In this document: in pieces, positions 4,795 through 12,506 of the stretch | How the letters are laid out: every line of letters begins with the position of its first letter | Numbering within the stretch: the stretch's first letter is position 1 | Source of the DNA: Micromonospora sp. R77 | GTDB lineage: Bacteria; Actinomycetota; Actinomycetes; Mycobacteriales; Micromonosporaceae | Assembly (NCBI RefSeq): GCF_022747945.1 | Contig: NZ_JALDST010000001.1 | Location: 3,596,001-3,660,000 of the forward strand | Length of the DNA stretch: 64,000 bases | Reading direction: 5' to 3' | The notes under the pieces: generated by a model | Seen by the model: only the letters and a program-made list of their open reading frames with translations | Database searches by the model: none | What the model was told of the DNA's origin: nothing | Program-made: the position numbers and the translations under genes

Positions 4795-6075
4795 ATGTCC
4801 ACCACCGCTGTCCCCGACGTCGCTGTCGCGACGGTCGACGAGGGCTTCTGGACCCGTACCCGCAAGGTCGGTGCGGTCCTGCTGGGGCTGGGCGTGCTGG
4901 CCGCCGTGCTCTTCGGTGCGCTCGCCACCGGCCAGGCGGCCCGCTTCACCCTCAGCGAGACCGAGGGCGGCGCGGCTCTGGAGATCAACGGCACGATCGG
5001 CGCGATCGCCTTCGGGATCATCGCGGCCGTGGCCGGCGCCGCCCTGCTCGCCGGGGTGCCGAAGCGCTGGTTCACGGTGCTGCTCGGCGTCGGGCTGCTC
5101 GCCTTCGTGCTGAGCTTCCTGTGCTGGCAGGTCTCCGCCGCTCCCGCCGGGCGTAACTTCATGCCGCTGGTCAACATCATCCGGGGCACCTTCGTGCTGG
5201 CCCTGCCGCTGATCTTCGGCGCGCTGGCCGGCGTGCTCTGCGAACGGTCCGGCGTGGTCAACGTGGCGATCGAGGGGCAGCTGCTGATGGGCGCCTTCAG
5301 CGGCGCGCTCTTCGGCAGCCTCTCCGGCAACGTCTGGGTCGGCCTGGTCGCCGCGGCGATCGGTGGCGCGTTCATCTCGCTGCTGCTGGCCGTCTTCGCC
5401 ATCCGCTACCTGGTCGACCAGGTGGTCATGGGCATCGTGCTGAACCTGCTGGCGGTCGGCGTCACCGGCTTCCTCTACGAGCGGCTGATGCAGACCGACG
5501 CGACGAAGTACAACAGCGCGCCGCGCTTCTCCAACTGGGAGATCCCGCTGCTGAAGGACATCCCGCTGATCGGGCCGGCGCTGTTCCGGGGGAACATCTT
5601 CCTCTATCTCGGCCTACTGCTGGTGCTCGTCATCCACATCGCGCTGTTCCGTACCCGGTGGGGTCTGCGGACCCGGTCGGTCGGTGAGCACCCCACCGCC
5701 GCCGACACGCTCGGCGTGAAGGTGCTCCGGCTGCGCTACCGCAACGTGCTGCTGGCCGGGCTGGTCGCCGGCGTGGGCGGCGCCTCCTACACCCTGGCGC
5801 TCTACTCGTTCACCAAGAACATGATCGGCGGTAAGGGCTTCATCGCCCTCGCCGCGCTGATCTTCGGTCGCTGGAGCCCGACCGGTGCCCTGCTGGCCGC
5901 GCTCTTCTTCGGCTTCGCCGACCAGCTCGCCACCTACCTGGGTGCGATCGGCAGCGGCATCCCCAGCCAGTTCCTGGCGATGCTGCCCTACCTGGCGACG
6001 ATCCTGGCGGTGGCCGGCCTGGTCGGCCGGGTCCGGGCGCCGGCGGCGGACGGCAAGCCGTACATCAAGGGCTGA
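4795..6075 (+). CDS. Nucleoside ABC importer permease (NupQ-like, BPD_transp_2)
   Basis: A 426-residue second permease, 4 bases after its partner. The N-terminal third, to about residue 125, is an extra hydrophobic block with three or four helices; the conserved permease core follows (LCERSGVVNVAIEGQ, then YLVDQVVMGIVLNLLAVG). The same order of lipoprotein, ATPase, permease, permease is found in nupNOPQ of Bacillus and in Streptomyces next to cytidine deaminase and thymidine phosphorylase. Here that continuation is interrupted by the block at 6087-11733. Two hairpins directly follow the stop codon. Confidence 0.88.
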   Translation: MSTTAVPDVAVATVDEGFWTRTRKVGAVLLGLGVLAAVLFGALATGQAARFTLSETEGGAALEINGTIGAIAFGIIAAVAGAALLAGVPKRWFTVLLGVGLLAFVLSFLCWQVSAAPAGRNFMPLVNIIRGTFVLALPLIFGALAGVLCERSGVVNVAIEGQLLMGAFSGALFGSLSGNVWVGLVAAAIGGAFISLLLAVFAIRYLVDQVVMGIVLNLLAVGVTGFLYERLMQTDATKYNSAPRFSNWEIPLLKDIPLIGPALFRGNIFLYLGLLLVLVIHIALFRTRWGLRTRSVGEHPTAADTLGVKVLRLRYRNVLLAGLVAGVGGASYTLALYSFTKNMIGGKGFIALAALIFGRWSPTGALLAALFFGFADQLATYLGAIGSGIPSQFLAMLPYLATILAVAGLVGRVRAPAADGKPYIKG

Positions 6076-6086
6076 CCAGGACCTGG

Positions 6087-6124
6087 CCGTGATGCCCGGC
6101 AGGCTGGTCGGCCGGGCATCACGG
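6087..6124 (+). terminator. Stem-loop terminator after the nucleoside importer operon
   Basis: A perfect 14-bp inverted repeat (6087-6100 with 6111-6124) and a 10-base loop, beginning 12 bases after the permease stop. There is no U-tract, which is usual for high-G+C actinobacteria. Confidence 0.7.
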
Positions 6125-6132
6125 TGAGCCAG

Positions 6133-6185
6133 GAGACCTCCGGCCCGGTGTGGGCGTCAGCACCGCACACCTCGCCGGAGGTCTC
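6133..6185. terminator. Second tandem stem-loop, possibly bidirectional
   Basis: A perfect 12-bp inverted repeat (6133-6144 with 6174-6185); GGTGTG/CACACC inside it can extend the structure. It lies between the plus-strand importer operon and the 3' end of the minus-strand SARP gene, so it can insulate both. Confidence 0.55.
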
Positions 6186-6257
6186 GCCTCGTCTCAGGCC
6201 GTCACGCCGTCGACAACGCTCATCGGCACGGCCCTGGCCAGGGGCCGCTGCGAAGCG

Positions 6258-7217
6258 TCAGGCCGCTCGGCCGGGCCGCGGCAGCCGTTCGACAGCTGCG
6301 CTCCGGTGGCCCGTTCCGATGAGTGAATAGGCCGCGCGGATGTGGGACATGGCCTCTTCGAGGTGGCGTACCAGCTCCGACTCGTGGCTCACCACGTTGT
6401 TGACGTGCGGTTGCATCGAGGCGAACGCCGACAGGTCGGTGTCGATCCGACCACGACGCGAGCCCGACGCGGGCGAAGGGGTGTCGGAGGCCAAGGCCTT
6501 CTGAATTCGCCGTTCCGCCCCTCGGGCCGCAGGCCCTGGGCGACTGCCGAAGTCTTCAGCCAGGCCCGTCGCGAAGGCGCGATAGGCGGCCAGGGCCTCC
6601 GGATACCGATGGCTCAGCAGCAGGGCGTCGACCAGTAGCACCAGGTAGCGTTCGTCCGCAGGATGCAGTCGGGTCTGACACCGCAGGTCTGCCACAGCCT
6701 CGTCCAGACGCCCCAACTCGATCTGCGTCTCGATCAACCGCTCGGTGGCGGCCGCCCGCAGTTCGTCGAGACGGTGTGCACAGGCCCGGAGCTCGACGCC
6801 GTCCATGCCCTCGAGTGCCGGGCCCCTCCACAGCGCGAGGCTGTCACGATACGTGGCGACCGCCGACTCCGCCCGGCCTGCGGCGAGGTGTTCGGCAGCG
6901 GTACGCAGGTCGCGCTCGAAACAGTGGGCGTCGATCTCGCCAGGATCCACGTTGAGTTGGTAGCCGCGCCCGCTCCGGCTGATGTCGACGGCGTCGGCTC
7001 CACCACCGAGGACCCGGCGGAGCATCGACATGCAGTTCTGGACCTGCTCACGAGCGGTTGCCGGAGGCCGCTCATCCCAAACGGCGTCGACCATCCGGTC
7101 GACGGACACACTCTTGTTGACGTTCGCCGCGAGCATGGCCACCAGCACGGTGGCGCGACGTCCTGTTACACCGGCTGTGTTCTCGACGCATGGAGCGCCC
7201 AGGATTCTGAAACGCAT
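6258..7217 (-). CDS. SARP-family (AfsR/DnrI-type) transcriptional activator
   Basis: 319 residues. Residues 1-90 match the OmpR-like winged helix of SARPs (MRFRILG at the start, SVSVDRMVDAVW, ATAREQVQNCMSMLRR, GRGYQL). Residues 95-245 form the bacterial transcriptional activation domain with helical-repeat character (CFERDLRTAAEHLAAGRAE, WRGPALEG, HPADERYLVLLVDALL). About 70 further residues form a tail I do not recognise. SARPs usually activate secondary-metabolite or other specialised operons by binding heptameric direct repeats with RNA polymerase. No biosynthetic cluster lies here, so the natural target is the minus-strand operon just upstream (10976 to 7421) or a distant locus; this is inference. 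A promoter is visible at 7263-7292. Confidence 0.88.
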   Translation of the reverse strand: MRFRILGAPCVENTAGVTGRRATVLVAMLAANVNKSVSVDRMVDAVWDERPPATAREQVQNCMSMLRRVLGGGADAVDISRSGRGYQLNVDPGEIDAHCFERDLRTAAEHLAAGRAESAVATYRDSLALWRGPALEGMDGVELRACAHRLDELRAAATERLIETQIELGRLDEAVADLRCQTRLHPADERYLVLLVDALLLSHRYPEALAAYRAFATGLAEDFGSRPGPAARGAERRIQKALASDTPSPASGSRRGRIDTDLSAFASMQPHVNNVVSHESELVRHLEEAMSHIRAAYSLIGTGHRSAAVERLPRPGRAA

Positions 7218-7262
7218 TGTCTTTCCCCCGTTGTGCCGGCTGTTACGGAACCGGCTCGAGCC

Positions 7263-7292
7263 ATCCTGCAGGCGGCCCTAACGGAGTGTCAA
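7263..7292 (-). promoter_or_regulatory. Promoter of the SARP gene
   Basis: On the minus strand a consensus -35 TTGACA (7287-7292) is followed after 18 bases by CAGGAT (7263-7268) as a -10. The -10 box ends 45 bases before the ATG at 7217. This is the best vegetative-type promoter in the window. Confidence 0.6.
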
Positions 7293-7350
7293 GATCTGCT
7301 CACGACGAAGAGGTCATTCGGGACGGAGGGTCCGAAGGGGGTGGATCGGC

Positions 7351-7386
7351 GTGAAGCGTGACCGGGTGCCCCCGGTCACGCTTCAC
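7351..7386 (-). terminator. Terminator of the M15-like operon
   Basis: A perfect 16-bp hairpin (7351-7366 with 7371-7386) with a 4-base loop, 35 bases past the stop of the gene at 7421. It separates that operon from the SARP promoter downstream on the same strand. Confidence 0.75.
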
Positions 7387-7420
7387 CCGGCGAACGGGTT
7401 CGACGAGATCCGGTCAGCGC

Positions 7421-8119
7421 CTACGACTGCTGTCGGGTGGCGAGGGTGGAAGCCGCCCGCCGACGACCGGGGGAGTAGATGTCGGCGGGGGTACCCGCTC
7501 CGTTGCCCGGCGTCGCGTCCCACGAGCCGATCTTCCGGGCCACGCGAAGCAGCCGACCGTCACCGGGTCGTACGTCGATCTGGAAGTGTCCTTCCTTCGG
7601 CCGGGCCCGGTGGTCGCCGCCCCAGCGAACGACACCCTCGCACTCGGCCAGAATGTCACGCACGACCGCCACCTCGTGGGCGAAGAAGCCGCCGCGTACC
7701 CCGGCCGGGTAACGGTCAGGCCAGATGGCGACGGCGGTACCCGAGAGGTAGTTCGACTCGTACGGAGCCGAGATCCGGCGGTTCGTGTGGTGGCCGGAGA
7801 CGGCACCCACCGTCACCGCGCTGATCTCGTAGTGGAACCTGCGCACCACGTGCAGCAGGACGGTCGCTACCTCACCGGTCAACAGGGCCACCGAGGCGTT
7901 GGACCCCTCCACGTGGTACGTGCGGGTGGCCGTCGAGCCGATCACCGGCCAACCGTTCTGCGAGGTGGCTCGGGTCCACGGCTGCCCGGCGGACGTCGCG
8001 GTCGGTGACGCCGCTGCGGCGGGACTGCCGGCGAGCGCGACGGCCCCCGCACCGGCCACCCCGGCGAGAAGAACATGGCGGCGGTGCCACCCGTTACCGG
8101 AGTTGTCAGACTCAATCAT
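7421..8119 (-). CDS. Tat-exported M15 peptidase-like protein lacking zinc ligands
   Basis: 232 residues from ATG 8119, which has AGGAG nine bases upstream; GTG 8161 is an alternative. A twin-arginine-type signal (RRHVLLAGVAGAGAVALAG, then AAAASP) predicts export. The C-terminal half resembles D-Ala-D-Ala carboxypeptidase/endolysin-type M15 domains: an SNxxSGTAxx motif followed by ECEGVVRWGGD and GHFQIDV. Family enzymes bind zinc through SxHxxGxAxD plus a late His. Here the first two ligands are Tyr and Ala (SNYLSGTAVAIW, checked in the DNA) and only the final His remains. It is therefore probably a non-catalytic peptidoglycan-binding or inhibitor protein. It is the last gene of a three-gene minus-strand operon. 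Confidence 0.65.
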   Translation of the reverse strand: MIESDNSGNGWHRRHVLLAGVAGAGAVALAGSPAAAASPTATSAGQPWTRATSQNGWPVIGSTATRTYHVEGSNASVALLTGEVATVLLHVVRRFHYEISAVTVGAVSGHHTNRRISAPYESNYLSGTAVAIWPDRYPAGVRGGFFAHEVAVVRDILAECEGVVRWGGDHRARPKEGHFQIDVRPGDGRLLRVARKIGSWDATPGNGAGTPADIYSPGRRRAASTLATRQQS

Positions 8120-8157
8120 GTGTTGGTACTCCTGGGCTGCTTGCCTGCGGATCGATG

Positions 8158-8574
8158 TCACAGCGAAGTGGGCGAGCCCCTACGGCGGCGCCGTACGAGT
8201 TGGACCGCCCCGATGAGCGCACAGCTGAGCGCACCGGTCAGCAGGAGGATGATGAGGGGATTGACGTAAGCGGGCACCATGTCGACGTACTCGGTGCACT
8301 TGCGTTCCAGCGGCCAGTACCGCGCGTGGCCGTGCATGCCGTCCCAGTTGTCGTAGCGGGACACGCATGCGTCCCGGGGACTCGCACCCCAGTACGCCTG
8401 CATGTGCACGAGGCCGAACAGGTACATCTCGCCGGCCGCCAGGAGAAGGTAGGCGGCCGTGCGTGTCCATCCCCTCGCCGGTCCCTCGATTCGGCGGGTG
8501 GCCCGATGCAGTGCACGGGCCGCCGGCAGAACGAGGACGAGCGCGGTGAACAGGACCATCGCCAAAGCGAGCAC
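8158..8574 (-). CDS. Small three-helix membrane protein of unknown function
   Basis: 138 residues from GTG 8574, with AAGGAG five bases upstream. Hydrophobic segments lie at residues 1-22, about 38-62 and about 105-130. The loop between helices 2 and 3 (about 63-100) is rich in aromatic and charged residues and has two Cys (DACVSRYDNW, ERKCTEY). The tail is strongly basic (RRRRRG). I do not recognise a family. It starts 17 bases after the large gene at 8592 and ends 38 bases before the M15-like gene, so the three are probably co-transcribed. A membrane anchor or immunity/export partner for its neighbours is a guess. Confidence 0.6.
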   Translation of the reverse strand: MLALAMVLFTALVLVLPAARALHRATRRIEGPARGWTRTAAYLLLAAGEMYLFGLVHMQAYWGASPRDACVSRYDNWDGMHGHARYWPLERKCTEYVDMVPAYVNPLIILLLTGALSCALIGAVQLVRRRRRGSPTSL

Positions 8575-8591
8575 GGTCGCTCCTTCTCGAG

Positions 8592-10976
8592 CTAACGCTG
8601 GGCGGCGCGCAGGCGTGCCATCCTGGCGTCCTGGTTGACCAAATTCTGGAGGGTGTCCACGTACCCCTTCAGGAAGGGGTCGAGTTTGCTGGCCGGTAGT
8701 GCGCTCGGCGGCAGGGCCCCCGAGGTCTCCAGCTGAACGGCGGCCGTCTTCAACGCGTCGGTCACGAGGTCGTGGGTGCCACAGAGCATGGTTCTCGCCG
8801 CGGTCGTCACGTCGGCGGTGCTGCCGTTGTAGCGCTTGGTGAAGAACTGCCGGAACCGGGTGAGGTAACCGGTGCCACCGAGGTGACCACGCAGGGCCGC
8901 CTTGACCGTCGATCCTCCGCGCAGTGCCTTGCCGAGCAGGTAGCCGTCGACGTCCTCCACCAGGTCACCGAAGCTGAAGGACGACACGACGTTGATCTTC
9001 GCAAGCCGATCCATGCAGAAGGCGTAGCCGGAGGCGTACTCGTCCTCGTTGTTCCACCAATCGGCGTAGAACGTGGTCAGGTCGCCACCCCAGCCGCCGA
9101 AGTCTCCGCGCCAACCGACGGAGCCGTTCGCCGTCAGACCGCCGCTGCCCTTCGCGTAGACGGCGCAGGCCGTGGCGGCGAGGTGGTCGACGTTGATCTC
9201 CACTCCGTAGCCGGGGTCGACGAAGATCGGTTGGCGCCGAGGACCGTTCGCCTGTGCATAGGACAGCCAGGACTGGTCCACGCCGGTGGTGTCGAGCAGC
9301 GTGTTCCAACCGCTCTTCTCACCGTCGTAGACGGGGTAGCGCAGGAAGTCCAGAACCAGCCGGTTGGGTTCACCCTTGGCGTACGCCACGGCGGTCGCCT
9401 GAAGTTGATCGATGTAGGTGAGGAACTGCTCGATCGGCGTACCGGTGGCACCGACGTTCTCGGCGCCCACGCCCGGGTCGCTGAAGGGGCGTTGGACGTC
9501 GCGATCGAGGTCGAACGAGTCGGTGCCCGTCGTGTAGCGGAATTCCTTGATCTGGTTGAAGGACCAGTTGGCGGGCATCGAGAAACCGAGGTTGCCGGAG
9601 AACCCCCACGACATTCCCGATACGAAGGAGTAGCGGGCATACGTCTCGTCGCTGACCCGCGAGCACACGTTACGTGATCCGTAGACGCCGGCGAGGTACC
9701 GCTTGCCCTGACTGGAGAGTCCTGCCTGCACGCCCCTGAAGTACGGGACGATGTTGCTCGTGATCTCCTCGTCCGTGGCGTCGTAGTCGACTGCGAAGTA
9801 GATGACGGTGCCCCGGTTGAACCCGTATCCGAGGGCTCGCGCGTGGGCACGTACCGCATGGCTGTAACCCTGCGAATAGGTGAAGTCCTCAAGGCCGCGG
9901 CCGTTGTACTGGGAGATCGGGAACATCCGCATTCCGCCGGCGAAGATGGCATTGAGTTCGCCGGGCTGAATTTCCTTCTGCAGACTCTTCGGCTCGTCCT
10001 CGTCGAGGTATCGTCCGACCGTGTAGTACCCGGATGCGACGAGAGCGCGGGCACGGGTCTCGCTGATGTGGTAGCGGGTGTCGCAGGCGTGCGCCGGCCG
10101 GTCCGGATCGCCCGTGGAGACGAGCAGCTGAGCCCACGTCTGGTAGTCGCCGCGTCCGTTGACGGTCAGGGCGGAGAATCGCTGGAACTCCCCGACGTAG
10201 GTGGCGAGCGCCGCGTCGAACACGCTCTTGAAGGTCGTGCTGTAGGAGCCCGTCGCGCTGAGCACCACGCCGTTGAAGACGCAGGCGGCGCTGAACAGCT
10301 GGACGAAGATGCCCGACGAGCCCTGGGCGACGGGGTGATCGCGCAGGCCCTGCTGCGTACCGGGGCCGAAGTTCCCGTTGACCTGGTCCTGCGGGATGCC
10401 GATCTCGTACTGGATCGCCTTCATCAGGGCCTGCTGCACGTCACGGGAGTAGTGGCCGTCACACGGCACGATGAAGAACGTCGACTTGCTGAGGTAACGG
10501 CCGTTGAGCCACCGTTGGATCTCCCGGACCTCGGGCCGGCCGCCGGAGAGCAGCACGTACGCGTCCATGGTCAGCAGAGACTTGAAGACCTTCGGCTGCA
10601 CGTCGGTGTTCGAGGCGTCCAGACCGGCGTCCGCCTTGAGCTGGGCGATGGCCGAGGCCGTGTCGGTGCCGTACACGCCGTCGCCGGGGCCGCCCCAGTA
10701 GCCCTTGCAGAAGAGCGCGTACTGGACAATGTTGACGATGTTCCCGTTGGTGGTGTCAGGGCCGATGTCGCCGAGCGTGGAGAGTCGCGACATGGTGGTG
10801 GGACCGAAGGCGTCGGACAGCACCTCGATCCCGAGTTCGTGCTGCAGTGCCCGGGTGAGGGAGTACATGGTGGCCCAACCGGTCTGACCGTTCTCCGGGC
10901 ACGGATTGTAGTACGGCACTGATTGGTAGGTGGAGTTCACCCACTTCTGGGCCTCCAGCACCTTGGCGTCTGCCAT
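8592..10976 (-). CDS. Large protein with duplicated peptidoglycan-binding-like repeats and a DUF1906 glycoside-hydrolase-like domain
   Basis: 794 residues. Residues 1-140 and 141-290 are diverged copies of one module: EAQKWVNSTY, ALQHELGI and FGPTTMSRL in the first match EIQRWLNGRY, AIQYEIGI and FGPGTQQGL in the second. These resemble peptidoglycan-binding-type repeats. Residues about 298-500 match the DUF1906 (Rv2525c-like) TIM-barrel family: ALVASGYYTVGRYLDED, FPISQYNG, VIYFAVDYDATDEEI, GVYGSRNVC and a closing SFDLDRD. The last 290 residues, rich in Trp, Gly and Asp around WRGDFGGWGGD, are unknown to me. There is no signal peptide, so export must be non-classical or the protein acts after lysis. 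G+C is lower than in the surroundings (33 of 60 in 9541-9600), suggesting transfer. It is the first gene of the operon. Confidence 0.75.
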   Translation of the reverse strand: MADAKVLEAQKWVNSTYQSVPYYNPCPENGQTGWATMYSLTRALQHELGIEVLSDAFGPTTMSRLSTLGDIGPDTTNGNIVNIVQYALFCKGYWGGPGDGVYGTDTASAIAQLKADAGLDASNTDVQPKVFKSLLTMDAYVLLSGGRPEVREIQRWLNGRYLSKSTFFIVPCDGHYSRDVQQALMKAIQYEIGIPQDQVNGNFGPGTQQGLRDHPVAQGSSGIFVQLFSAACVFNGVVLSATGSYSTTFKSVFDAALATYVGEFQRFSALTVNGRGDYQTWAQLLVSTGDPDRPAHACDTRYHISETRARALVASGYYTVGRYLDEDEPKSLQKEIQPGELNAIFAGGMRMFPISQYNGRGLEDFTYSQGYSHAVRAHARALGYGFNRGTVIYFAVDYDATDEEITSNIVPYFRGVQAGLSSQGKRYLAGVYGSRNVCSRVSDETYARYSFVSGMSWGFSGNLGFSMPANWSFNQIKEFRYTTGTDSFDLDRDVQRPFSDPGVGAENVGATGTPIEQFLTYIDQLQATAVAYAKGEPNRLVLDFLRYPVYDGEKSGWNTLLDTTGVDQSWLSYAQANGPRRQPIFVDPGYGVEINVDHLAATACAVYAKGSGGLTANGSVGWRGDFGGWGGDLTTFYADWWNNEDEYASGYAFCMDRLAKINVVSSFSFGDLVEDVDGYLLGKALRGGSTVKAALRGHLGGTGYLTRFRQFFTKRYNGSTADVTTAARTMLCGTHDLVTDALKTAAVQLETSGALPPSALPASKLDPFLKGYVDTLQNLVNQDARMARLRAAQR

Positions 10977-11232
10977 CTTTCACCTGTTTCCGTTGAAACG
11001 CGGCGGGGAATAGGTGCCGCCGACGGGGCGGATGCCTTCTAAGAGGCACCCTCGGTAATCGTCGGTGAAGCGTACTTTCGTTTTCCACCGCTGGATCATC
11101 GATTTCCCATCTCGCGCCGGTGGGCCGAAGGTGGCCGCACGATGTCCATTTGATGAGCGGCTCTTCTAGCCTCTGATCCAGCGACGTCACATCGGCGTCT
11201 CTGGTGTGAAGAAGTGGAAGGTGCACGACTCG
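10977..11232. promoter_or_regulatory. Divergent intergenic region between the large operon and the secreted-protein gene
   Basis: The 256 bases between two divergent genes must hold promoters for both. On the plus strand TAGCCT at 11167-11172 is a possible -10 for the secreted-protein gene. On the minus strand no strong pair is evident. I saw no clear heptameric direct repeats of the SARP type. Confidence 0.3.
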
Positions 11233-11685
11233 ATGCGTAATCGACGTATGGCCGGCGCGTTCGCCGCAATCGGGGCCATCGCGGGTCTGACGGCGGTCGT
11301 ACTGCCCGCCGGCCCGGCCTCGGCATCCTGCAGCACGGTGCAGTACGCCCACTACGAGGCGTCCGGGGAGCACGGCTGGAAGTTGATGGGTGACGGCAGT
11401 TGCAGCGAGCGGTGGGGACAGTTGGTGATCGACAGTACCTATCCGACCGCCCCGGGTTTCTCGATCAAGATCGAGCGTCAGATCAAGTCGCCGTACGGTT
11501 ACGCCACGCAGGCGGCGTACACGGCGACCTTCGGCAGTGGCGCCACGGGCTCCAAGAGCACCACCCACACGGCGAACAGCTCGGGTGACGCCGACCGCCA
11601 CCGCGTGTGCTGGGACTACGCCCACTACAACGGCTCCAAGTGGGTGCCGGACGGCAGCTGGACGTGCTCGGGCTGGTACTACTGA
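11233..11685 (+). CDS. Small secreted protein, unknown function
   Basis: A 150-residue precursor. From ATG 11233 there is a classical signal peptide (basic MRNRRM, hydrophobic core, cleavage after PASA), giving a mature protein of about 115 residues. GTG 11206 and GTG 11221 are possible earlier starts. The mature part has four Cys (CSTVQYAHYEA, GSCSERWGQ, RVCWDYAHY, WTCSGWYY), likely two disulfides, and many Tyr, Trp, Ser and Thr. The first and last parts share a short AHY-centred pattern. I do not recognise the family. It is divergent from the large operon and ends at a strong terminator. Confidence 0.65.
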   Translation: MRNRRMAGAFAAIGAIAGLTAVVLPAGPASASCSTVQYAHYEASGEHGWKLMGDGSCSERWGQLVIDSTYPTAPGFSIKIERQIKSPYGYATQAAYTATFGSGATGSKSTTHTANSSGDADRHRVCWDYAHYNGSKWVPDGSWTCSGWYY

Positions 11686-11693
11686 CAGTTGTG

Positions 11694-11733
11694 ACGAAGC
11701 GGCCGACGGAGCACTCTCCGTCGGCCGCTTCGT
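11694..11733 (+). terminator. Terminator after the secreted-protein gene
   Basis: A perfect 17-bp hairpin (11694-11710 with 11717-11733) with a 6-base loop, 8 bases after the stop. It also marks the right boundary of the accessory block. Confidence 0.75.
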
Positions 11734-11798
11734 GCTGTGTGCCGCCGCGTCGTCGGGCCCGCCGCAGCTCAGCCCCGGCATGCGGCAGAATCGGTGCC

Positions 11799-12506
11799 AT
11801 GGAGATCGACTGGGAGCGGCTGCGGGCCGCCGCCACCGAGGTGATGCGGCACGCGTACGTGCCGTACTCGAAGTTCCCGGTCGGGGCGGCCGCCCTGGTC
11901 GACGACGGCCGGATCGTGGTCGGCTGCAACGTGGAGAACGCCGGCTACGGCGTCACCCTCTGCGCCGAGTGCGGGGTGGTCTCCTCGCTGCACGCCACCG
12001 GGGGCGGCCGGCTGGTCGCCATGTCCTGCGTCGACGCCACCGGTGAACCGCTGATGCCGTGCGGCCGCTGCCGGCAGCTGCTCTGGGAGAACGGCGGCCC
12101 GGAGTGCCTGGTCGAGGCGAAGGGCGGGCCGCTGCGGATGGCGGAGCTGCTGCCGCACGCGTTCGACGTCGCCGACCTCGAGGCCGTGGTCGGCGGGACC
12201 CCGGTGCCGGTGGTGCCGGACCGGCTGGCCGCCTGGCGCGGGCGCGGCAGCGTCTTCGTCCACCCGGACCTCTCCGCCGGGCAGCAGGTCTGGACGGCGT
12301 ACTGGGAGCGGTCGGCCGGGGACACCGAGGGCGCCGAGACCGGTGTGCTGGAGGAGGGCCCGACCTGGGACGACCCGGCCGAGGCGATCACCTGGGGGTT
12401 GGCCCGAACGCCGCGCGTGGTGGTGGTGGACGCGTCGGGCACGATCTTCTGGGCCGGTGAGGGTGAGCCGCCGATGGAGATCCCTGTTCGCTGGTCTGCT
12501 TCTTGA
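11799..12506 (+). CDS. cdd: Cytidine deaminase with C-terminal extension
   Basis: Hydrolyses cytidine and deoxycytidine to the uridine forms in the cytosol, feeding the phosphorylase encoded next. The first 135 residues are a complete cytidine deaminase: VPYSKFPVGAA, CNVENAGYGVTLCAECG with the zinc Cys and catalytic Glu (CAE), and PCGRCRQLL with two further zinc Cys. The protein runs to 235 residues. About 95 extra residues (RGSVFVHPDLSAGQQV, WDDPAEAITWGL, then a strand-rich RVVVVDASGTIFWAG) are not part of the usual 130-140-residue enzyme. The start at ATG 11799 has no Shine-Dalgarno sequence; CAGAAT lies 7 bases upstream, so the message may be leaderless. In relatives this gene directly follows the nucleoside importer. 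Confidence 0.92.
   Translation: MEIDWERLRAAATEVMRHAYVPYSKFPVGAAALVDDGRIVVGCNVENAGYGVTLCAECGVVSSLHATGGGRLVAMSCVDATGEPLMPCGRCRQLLWENGGPECLVEAKGGPLRMAELLPHAFDVADLEAVVGGTPVPVVPDRLAAWRGRGSVFVHPDLSAGQQVWTAYWERSAGDTEGAETGVLEEGPTWDDPAEAITWGLARTPRVVVVDASGTIFWAGEGEPPMEIPVRWSAS

Follow-up and report, generated by a model that had tools for sequence, protein, structure and literature searches.

A candidate TelC-type envelope toxin cassette with a Tat-signal partner in a recurrent insertion slot of Micromonospora

The 64,000-nucleotide stretch of Micromonospora sp. R77 analyzed here (the window; G000:C1:3596001-3660000 of the 7.1 Mb source genome G000) carries five genes between its second nucleoside permease gene and the cytidine deaminase gene cdd: a gene for a Streptomyces antibiotic regulatory protein (SARP)-type regulator, a three-gene operon and a gene for a secreted protein of 159 aa. 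Compared with most of the genus, this block is an insertion. The largest protein of its operon combines peptidoglycan (PG)-binding repeats, a GH25-type barrel and a TelC-like C-terminal domain, lacks a leader, and is encoded close to a conserved twin-arginine translocation (Tat)-signal protein that has lost its zinc ligands. We give about an even chance to the view that the block resides in a recurrent slot and that its operon is a TelC (lipocone)-type envelope toxin/immunity cassette, escorted by Tat and switched by the SARP. A sequence-only reading had described an accessory, envelope-directed block with a SARP and without biosynthetic genes inside. That description was borne out, as were the gene content, strands and coordinates (SARP, 6258-7217, - strand; operon, 7421-10976, - strand; Cys protein, 11206-11685, + strand), and the block proved sporadic in the genus. 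The putative TelC-type toxin domain, the leaderless state together with a Tat partner, and the recurrence of the slot go beyond that reading.

Results

Domain composition of the leaderless 794-aa protein

The three genes of the operon are separated by 17 bp and then overlap by 4 bp. Their products and the domains concerned are the following.

8592..10976, - strand: leaderless toxin-like protein, 794 aa, with PG-binding repeats, GH25-type barrel and TelC-like C-terminal domain
9465..10100, - strand: Rv2525c/GH25-type barrel, residues 293-504
8622..9446, - strand: TelC-like C-terminal domain, residues 511-785
8158..8574, - strand: protein of 138 aa with three transmembrane (TM) segments and an external Cys/Cys/Asp/Asn loop (3TM-CCDN); proposed immunity protein
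7421..8161, - strand: Tat-signal M15/VanY/LAS-fold protein, 246 aa, without zinc site; proposed Tat escort

The lipocone pattern described in PMC12419801 consists of a conserved His of H2, an Asp of H4 and a second Asp six residues downstream. In agreement with this TelC/lipocone pattern, residues H598, D671 and D677 of the C-terminal domain are present in all 31 of 31 alignment rows; their assignment to H2 and H4 is based on the alignment pattern and not on superposition. A search for TelC by sequence profile gave no match, and the absence of other folds from the VIA lists carries no weight against those folds. The PG-binding repeats and the Rv2525c barrel are both present, as in the PGBD-Rv2525c-TelC conflict operons.

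The domains of this family belong outside the cell. The proteins nevertheless begin directly at the first PG-binding motif in 98 of 120 close relatives when a strict pattern is applied; on inspection 14 of the other 22 begin alike, and the remaining ones are either truncated or extended. None of the 120 has a Tat signal. Matches to the 794-aa protein were obtained in 15 of 160 genomes, its own included, some of them in part only. Relatives with 90% and 89% identity are known from M. wenchangensis and M. vulcania, respectively. A relative of residues 1-493 (34% identity) is encoded on an unannotated fecal phage scaffold (L164, MT836466.1). A relative of the L142-type protein (P0149) is listed under the chytrid fungus Borealophlyctis, which may be contamination; the lipocone paper mentions fungi too.

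A conserved Tat-signal partner without zinc ligands

An open reading frame (ORF) with a Tat signal was found within the next 800 nt in 110 of 127 loci, whereas among control ORFs the regex test was positive for 6 of 103 and 12 of 187. After removal of four duplicates (L249, L135, L221 and L228) 123 loci were left, for which the misses were checked singly; L102 and L141 gave no glycoside hydrolase (GH) match under the rule used. A VanY-like partner is present in 104 of these 123 loci, with a readable Tat-like signal in 103, and nine have an unrelated Tat partner of ∼350 aa instead. Hence a Tat-like signal can be read in trans in 112 of the 123 distinct loci, the untagged protein being encoded beside a Tat-tagged partner. 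In three loci the GH protein has its own Tat signal and no Tat partner, and in seven there is neither. Among database relatives of the form with the signal in cis, at least 19 of 120 have a Tat signal; this is a lower count, as P0137 visibly has one that was missed by the rule. The relative of the barrel whose structure has been solved, Rv2525c, is reported to be a Tat substrate (PMC4038636). Together with this, the sequence comparisons suggest that Tat carries proteins of the 794-aa type, either on their own signal or on that of the partner.

Some loci required individual treatment. The VanY-like partner of L095 is encoded in a frame without a signal, the cis-Tat call for L082 came from a spurious upstream frame and was dropped, and the first Tat match in L099 lay in the wrong frame, the true partner passing. 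The ∼350-aa partner of L134 gave no match in Pfam; our guess is that this type corresponds to the protein with a pair of Ig domains in the eLife paper.

The 246-aa protein belongs to the VanY superfamily by its fold and by its match to ChiX, the best PDB sequence match of the family, and its Tat signal marks it as a secreted partner. The M15/VanY active site (zinc ligands His/Asp/His plus catalytic acid) has been lost, the corresponding residues being Y138/A145/K189/H192. Complete zinc ligands and catalytic acid were found in only one of 104 VanY-like partners (L277, genome G671), which is possibly an active form of ancestral type. The structural alignment comprised 38 chosen members, and the count over 104 depends on a profile alignment in which some rows are gapped. 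On these ligand counts an active peptidase was dropped as a description of the 246-aa protein.

The membrane protein and the toxin/immunity pattern

The C..C..D..N loop is present in the 138-aa protein and its family and fits the published 3TM-CCDN type (PMC12419801). Pfam gave no useful match. In the window copy the hydropathy rule recognizes two TM segments, and the third was assigned by eye. Of the 98 loci in which the GH protein has a C-terminal domain, 58 also contain a membrane gene, versus none of 25 in which it has no such domain. The 58 include L277 by virtue of a separate hydrophobic ORF of 123 aa, since its other ORF with at least two TM segments is the VanY-like partner. Where the C-terminal domain is of another type, a different membrane protein is frequently encoded (10 of 18 loci, L277 again counted by its separate ORF). 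Judged by gene content, this co-occurrence has the pattern of a putative toxin tip with its immunity protein. Small Cys proteins with signal-like starts replace the Tat partner downstream of the GH gene in L250, L251 (G711) and L281 (G727); they resemble the 159-aa protein of the window, by eye only.

The three-gene cassette, or its two constant genes, is found in Streptomyces, Saccharothrix, Actinokineospora, Amycolatopsis, Kibdelosporangium, Geodermatophilus and others, and no other gene cluster recurred in at least 6 of the 52 named loci apart from ABC ATPases and one type of regulator. Many actinobacteria carry the GH-3TM-Tat cassette as a unit, but with no close SARP. The family of leaderless proteins annotated as glycoside hydrolase domain-containing has at least 2,083 matches at E <= 0.001.

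The permease-cdd gap is a recurrent insertion slot

The flanks of the block are the following.

4795..6075, + strand: second nucleoside ABC permease (PF02653), left flank; found in 121 of 121 genus genomes searched, own included
11802..12506, + strand: cytidine deaminase (cdd), right flank; found in 121 of 121 genus genomes searched, own included

Both genes were located in 120 other genomes of the genus, a sample outside which genome G067 lies. The gap between them is shorter than 50 bp in 40 genomes, shorter than 300 bp in 103 and at least 1,000 bp in nine, with a median of 109 bp. The adjacency that the sequence-only reading had expected therefore holds, and by comparison with most genomes of the genus the block is an insertion. 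The block was not found at the same place in all relatives, the outcome that the same reading had named as counting against it: none of the 120 has the full block, and within this sample close relatives of its parts are present at the slot only in G105 (SARP, scars and 159-aa gene) and G073 (SARP and 159-aa gene).

The wide gaps indicate that the slot is recurrent. In G067 it holds a SARP, the same three-gene cassette and a 173-aa DUF2690 protein (E 6e-10) with a signal-like start, without the 159-aa gene; the 794-aa proteins of G000 and G067 are 78% identical versus 84% for the permease, a flank-like divergence. In G105 the SARP and the 159-aa gene enclose scars of the cassette, which are colinear scraps of the 246-aa and 794-aa genes with DNA identities of 80%, 76% and 77% over 65, 68 and 56 bp. 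In G073 a SARP and a 159-aa relative are accompanied by a PG-binding protein whose start is signal-like, a Golvesin_C protein of 1,554 aa that matches GDSL weakly and ends in a NucA/NucB nuclease domain, and a SUKH-like gene slightly below the Pfam cut-off. The same long Golvesin_C protein without the nuclease tip, together with a partner of 299-322 aa, occupies the slot in G082, G104, G125 (frameshifted) and G090 (truncated), where no SARP match was obtained. The slot thus shows cassette decay (G105) and exchange of cargo (G073). In G113 a distant SARP-like frame lies inside the gap (L130, 1238-1930), and the slots of G093 and G153 contain ordinary-looking genes, MFS-like and GAPDH-like on reading their translations.

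Two further observations concern the slot. The Golvesin_C/GDSL protein measures 1,334-1,340 aa in this position (2244-6908 of L125 in G073; L126/L128 of G082 and G104), and the extra NucA/NucB tip of ∼210 aa with the adjoining SUKH-like gene, present only in G073, looks like a second polymorphic-toxin cargo. The cytidine deaminase of the window is 234 aa long, with residues 2-127 covered by the cdd model and a C-terminal extension of ∼105 aa; matches reach residue 227-234 as one piece in 120 of 121 genus genomes and as two pieces in G171.

The SARP and the 159-aa protein form a second layer

6258..7217, - strand: SARP-type regulator, 319 aa (BTAD PF03704, E 1e-28; Trans_reg_C PF00486, E 4e-6)
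10977..11205: divergent promoter region separating the operon from the 159-aa gene; candidate SARP target
11206..11685, + strand: secreted four-Cys orphan protein, 159 aa, with signal-like N terminus

Relatives of the SARP occupy the same slot in G105 (69%), G067 (51%) and G073 (49%), with the distant one in G113 at 31%. Elsewhere SARP relatives lie within 10 kb of the cassette in only 4 of 53 named loci, where they are weak (34-37%), so the close SARP is a Micromonospora addition. Together with the 159-aa gene it forms a second layer, which also surrounds other cargo in G073 and cassette scars in G105. The claim of a self-contained unit is accordingly supported in part, with the GH-3TM-Tat cassette as the unit.

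At their targets SARPs bind heptamer direct repeats as operators. Region 10977-11205 contains four heptamer repeats at 11-bp spacing, both strands counted, against a shuffle mean of 0.55; no repeat motif shared with G067, G105 or G073 was seen. For the 159-aa protein, five relatives were found among 5.8 billion proteins at the sensitivity of the search, and the four named ones are from Micromonospora. In the genus genomes, relatives with 48% identity lie at the same slot in G105 and G073, and weak matches of 29-30% lie elsewhere in G080 and G113. Pfam gave no useful match. Assignment to DUF2690, like the 173-aa protein of G067, was rejected, as there was no profile match and just a 9-column tail.

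Edges and base composition of the block

6087..6124: hairpin with 14-bp stem, 3' of the permease gene (z -4.65)
6133..6185: second hairpin, 3' of the SARP gene, with 20-nt arms that are 90% complementary (z -4.9 on the + strand, -6.3 on the - strand)
7351..7386: perfect hairpin with 16-bp stem at the end of the operon, setting it apart from the SARP gene (z -6.4)
11694..11733: perfect hairpin with 18-bp stem at the right edge of the block (z -8.8)

Terminators had been proposed at both edges of the block. The hairpins are real: for 6087-6124, 6133-6185 and 11694-11733 none of 200 shuffles each folded as well. None of the four hairpins has a clear T run, and a consensus terminator scan of 5500-12500 found three sites versus 2.1 expected, none at the block edges. 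A sigma-70 scan gave no result, nor did PADLOC match any of the five proteins. The lower G+C content was confirmed for the block, at 66.6% versus 72.7 +/- 3.2% in 186 overlapping chunks of equal size from 20 stretches of the same genome and the remaining window, nine of which were as low. Third-position G+C is 0.78-0.88 versus ∼0.95 in four flanking genes. The segment with 33 of 60 G+C that had been singled out is by itself weak evidence, as 139 of 6,660 60-nt windows were as low.

Discussion

In the mechanism that we propose, the 794-aa protein would be made without a signal peptide and would cross in folded form via the Tat machinery while in complex with the Tat-signal VanY-like protein; the latter, its zinc site lost, would serve as escort. 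Outside, the PG-binding repeats and the GH25-type barrel would hold or open the wall, the TelC-like domain would cleave lipid II in rival cells, and the three-TM protein with its outward Cys loop would shield the producer. The neighbouring SARP probably turns on the cassette, and perhaps also the small secreted Cys protein, with secondary metabolism. A broader proposal, for which the chances are in our view somewhat below even, is that a class of actinobacterial envelope toxins rides Tat on a dead VanY-like escort related to phage lysins, replaced in some lineages by another Tat protein or a signal in cis, and that these toxins are swapped with unrelated ones in one SARP-adjoined Micromonospora slot. 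Several results call for caution: only three independent contrasts are available and the co-occurrence of membrane gene and C-terminal domain is not significant after accounting for relatedness; the 3TM gene is missing in 37 of 80 TelC-type loci; and the partner swap and the cis form each represent a single change on the tree.

The operon might instead be a domesticated wall-remodelling system, with the 794-aa protein as an endogenous autolysin or lipid II recycling enzyme for development or sporulation that is not antibacterial. The spread of the cassette over many developing actinobacteria, the endolysin-like GH25 fold and the SARP as neighbour would suit such a role, but sporadic presence within the genus (15 of 160 genomes, own included, some partial), C-terminal domains that are variable or absent, and slot cargo elsewhere that includes a NucA/NucB-tipped protein and a SUKH-like gene make it unlikely; the authors of PMC12419801 (eLife 2025) likewise take the operon as a conflict system. 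Still less probable is holin-like (Type 10) release, in which the three-TM protein would provide the membrane passage for the leaderless protein, with the VanY-like protein acting in the wall only, as described for ChiW, ChiX and the chitinases. ChiW is a three-TM protein, ChiX an M15 peptidase and ChiB/ChiC lack signals (PMC5778951), and ChiX is also the best PDB match of the 246-aa family. However, the scan used detected no membrane gene in 65 of 123 loci, of which 59 nevertheless have a Tat partner gene. Moreover, Type 10 systems have an active endopeptidase partner and ChiX requires Asp120 (PMC5778951), whereas the peptidase site is lost here, with Lys at that position in 36 of 38 members, and the 246-aa family has a Tat signal, of which ChiX has no obvious equivalent.

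The sequence-only reading had also proposed horizontal acquisition. Recent entry of everything from the SARP to the 159-aa gene as a single mobile unit would agree with the low G+C and with the restriction of close parts to G105 and G073 in a sample lacking the full block. Yet G067 shows the same order at this site, except that the 159-aa gene is absent, scars remain in G105, the 794-aa divergence from G067 is flank-like, and the close SARP does not accompany the cassette elsewhere. As had been noted from the sequence, there is no integrase gene in the block and no flanking direct repeat among those listed. We therefore regard recent entry as improbable, though slightly less so than Type 10 release; nothing requires acquisition to be recent, given that the arrangement or its remains are present in the same slot of G067 and G105.

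If the Tat-escorted cassette is indeed a toxin system, folded leaderless toxins would leave Gram-positive cells by Tat piggy-back, a route for polymorphic toxins beside type VI and type VII secretion (T6SS, T7SS) and contact-dependent inhibition. It would explain how the signal-less family of glycoside hydrolase domain-containing proteins acts on the wall, and would tie SARPs, known as switches of antibiotic clusters, to protein-based antagonism. Literature searches joining Streptomyces antibiotic regulatory protein with polymorphic toxin found nothing, and TelC with twin-arginine returned only T7SS papers, as judged by title or abstract.

The cassette type itself was predicted in 2025: PMC12419801 describes lipocone operons of PGBD + Rv2525c-like + prok-TelC architecture in Actinomycetota with 3TM Cys/Cys/Asp/Asn and VanY-superfamily partners. 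There the VanY partner is termed a secreted peptidase, whereas that of the window has lost its zinc ligands. In the main text of that article "tat" occurs only in two reference entries and "leaderless" is absent, and its available part contains no mention of lost zinc ligands or a SARP slot. To this the present analysis adds the conserved pairing of a leaderless toxin-like protein with a Tat partner, an inactivated VanY-like candidate escort of phage-lysin kinship, and the slot with decay and exchange. TelC/TipC of Streptococcus intermedius resembles the window protein in a predicted C-terminal TelC-like fold with conserved acid residues, and TelC itself acts extracellularly and is paired with an immunity protein (PMC5555719). 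TelC is an LXG toxin exported by the T7SS, whereas the window protein has PG-binding and GH25-type domains and no LXG domain in a Pfam scan; its putative immunity protein differs as well. Rv2525c of Mycobacterium tuberculosis (4pmr) is short and Tat-secreted, its 234-residue chain being all barrel without PG-binding or TelC-like part. The 246-aa protein aligns over residues 65-243 with a mycobacteriophage lysin A peptidase domain (Theia gp6; phrog_1512; E 5e-9, 33.5% identity). The phage domain retains H/D/D/H; the corresponding residues of the window protein are Y/A/K/H, and this protein also has a Tat signal. The Serratia ChiWXYZ Type 10 system shares a small three-TM protein, an M15-fold protein and leaderless glycoside hydrolases, but ChiX is an active enzyme without obvious signal peptide and its counterpart here is Tat-tagged and inactive-looking. 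Finally, in Tat hitchhiker complexes such as hydrogenases a subunit without a signal is exported along with a partner that has one (PMC10924467), and PaoABC is another such complex; these examples are cofactor enzymes, whereas the passenger proposed here would be a toxin-like protein.
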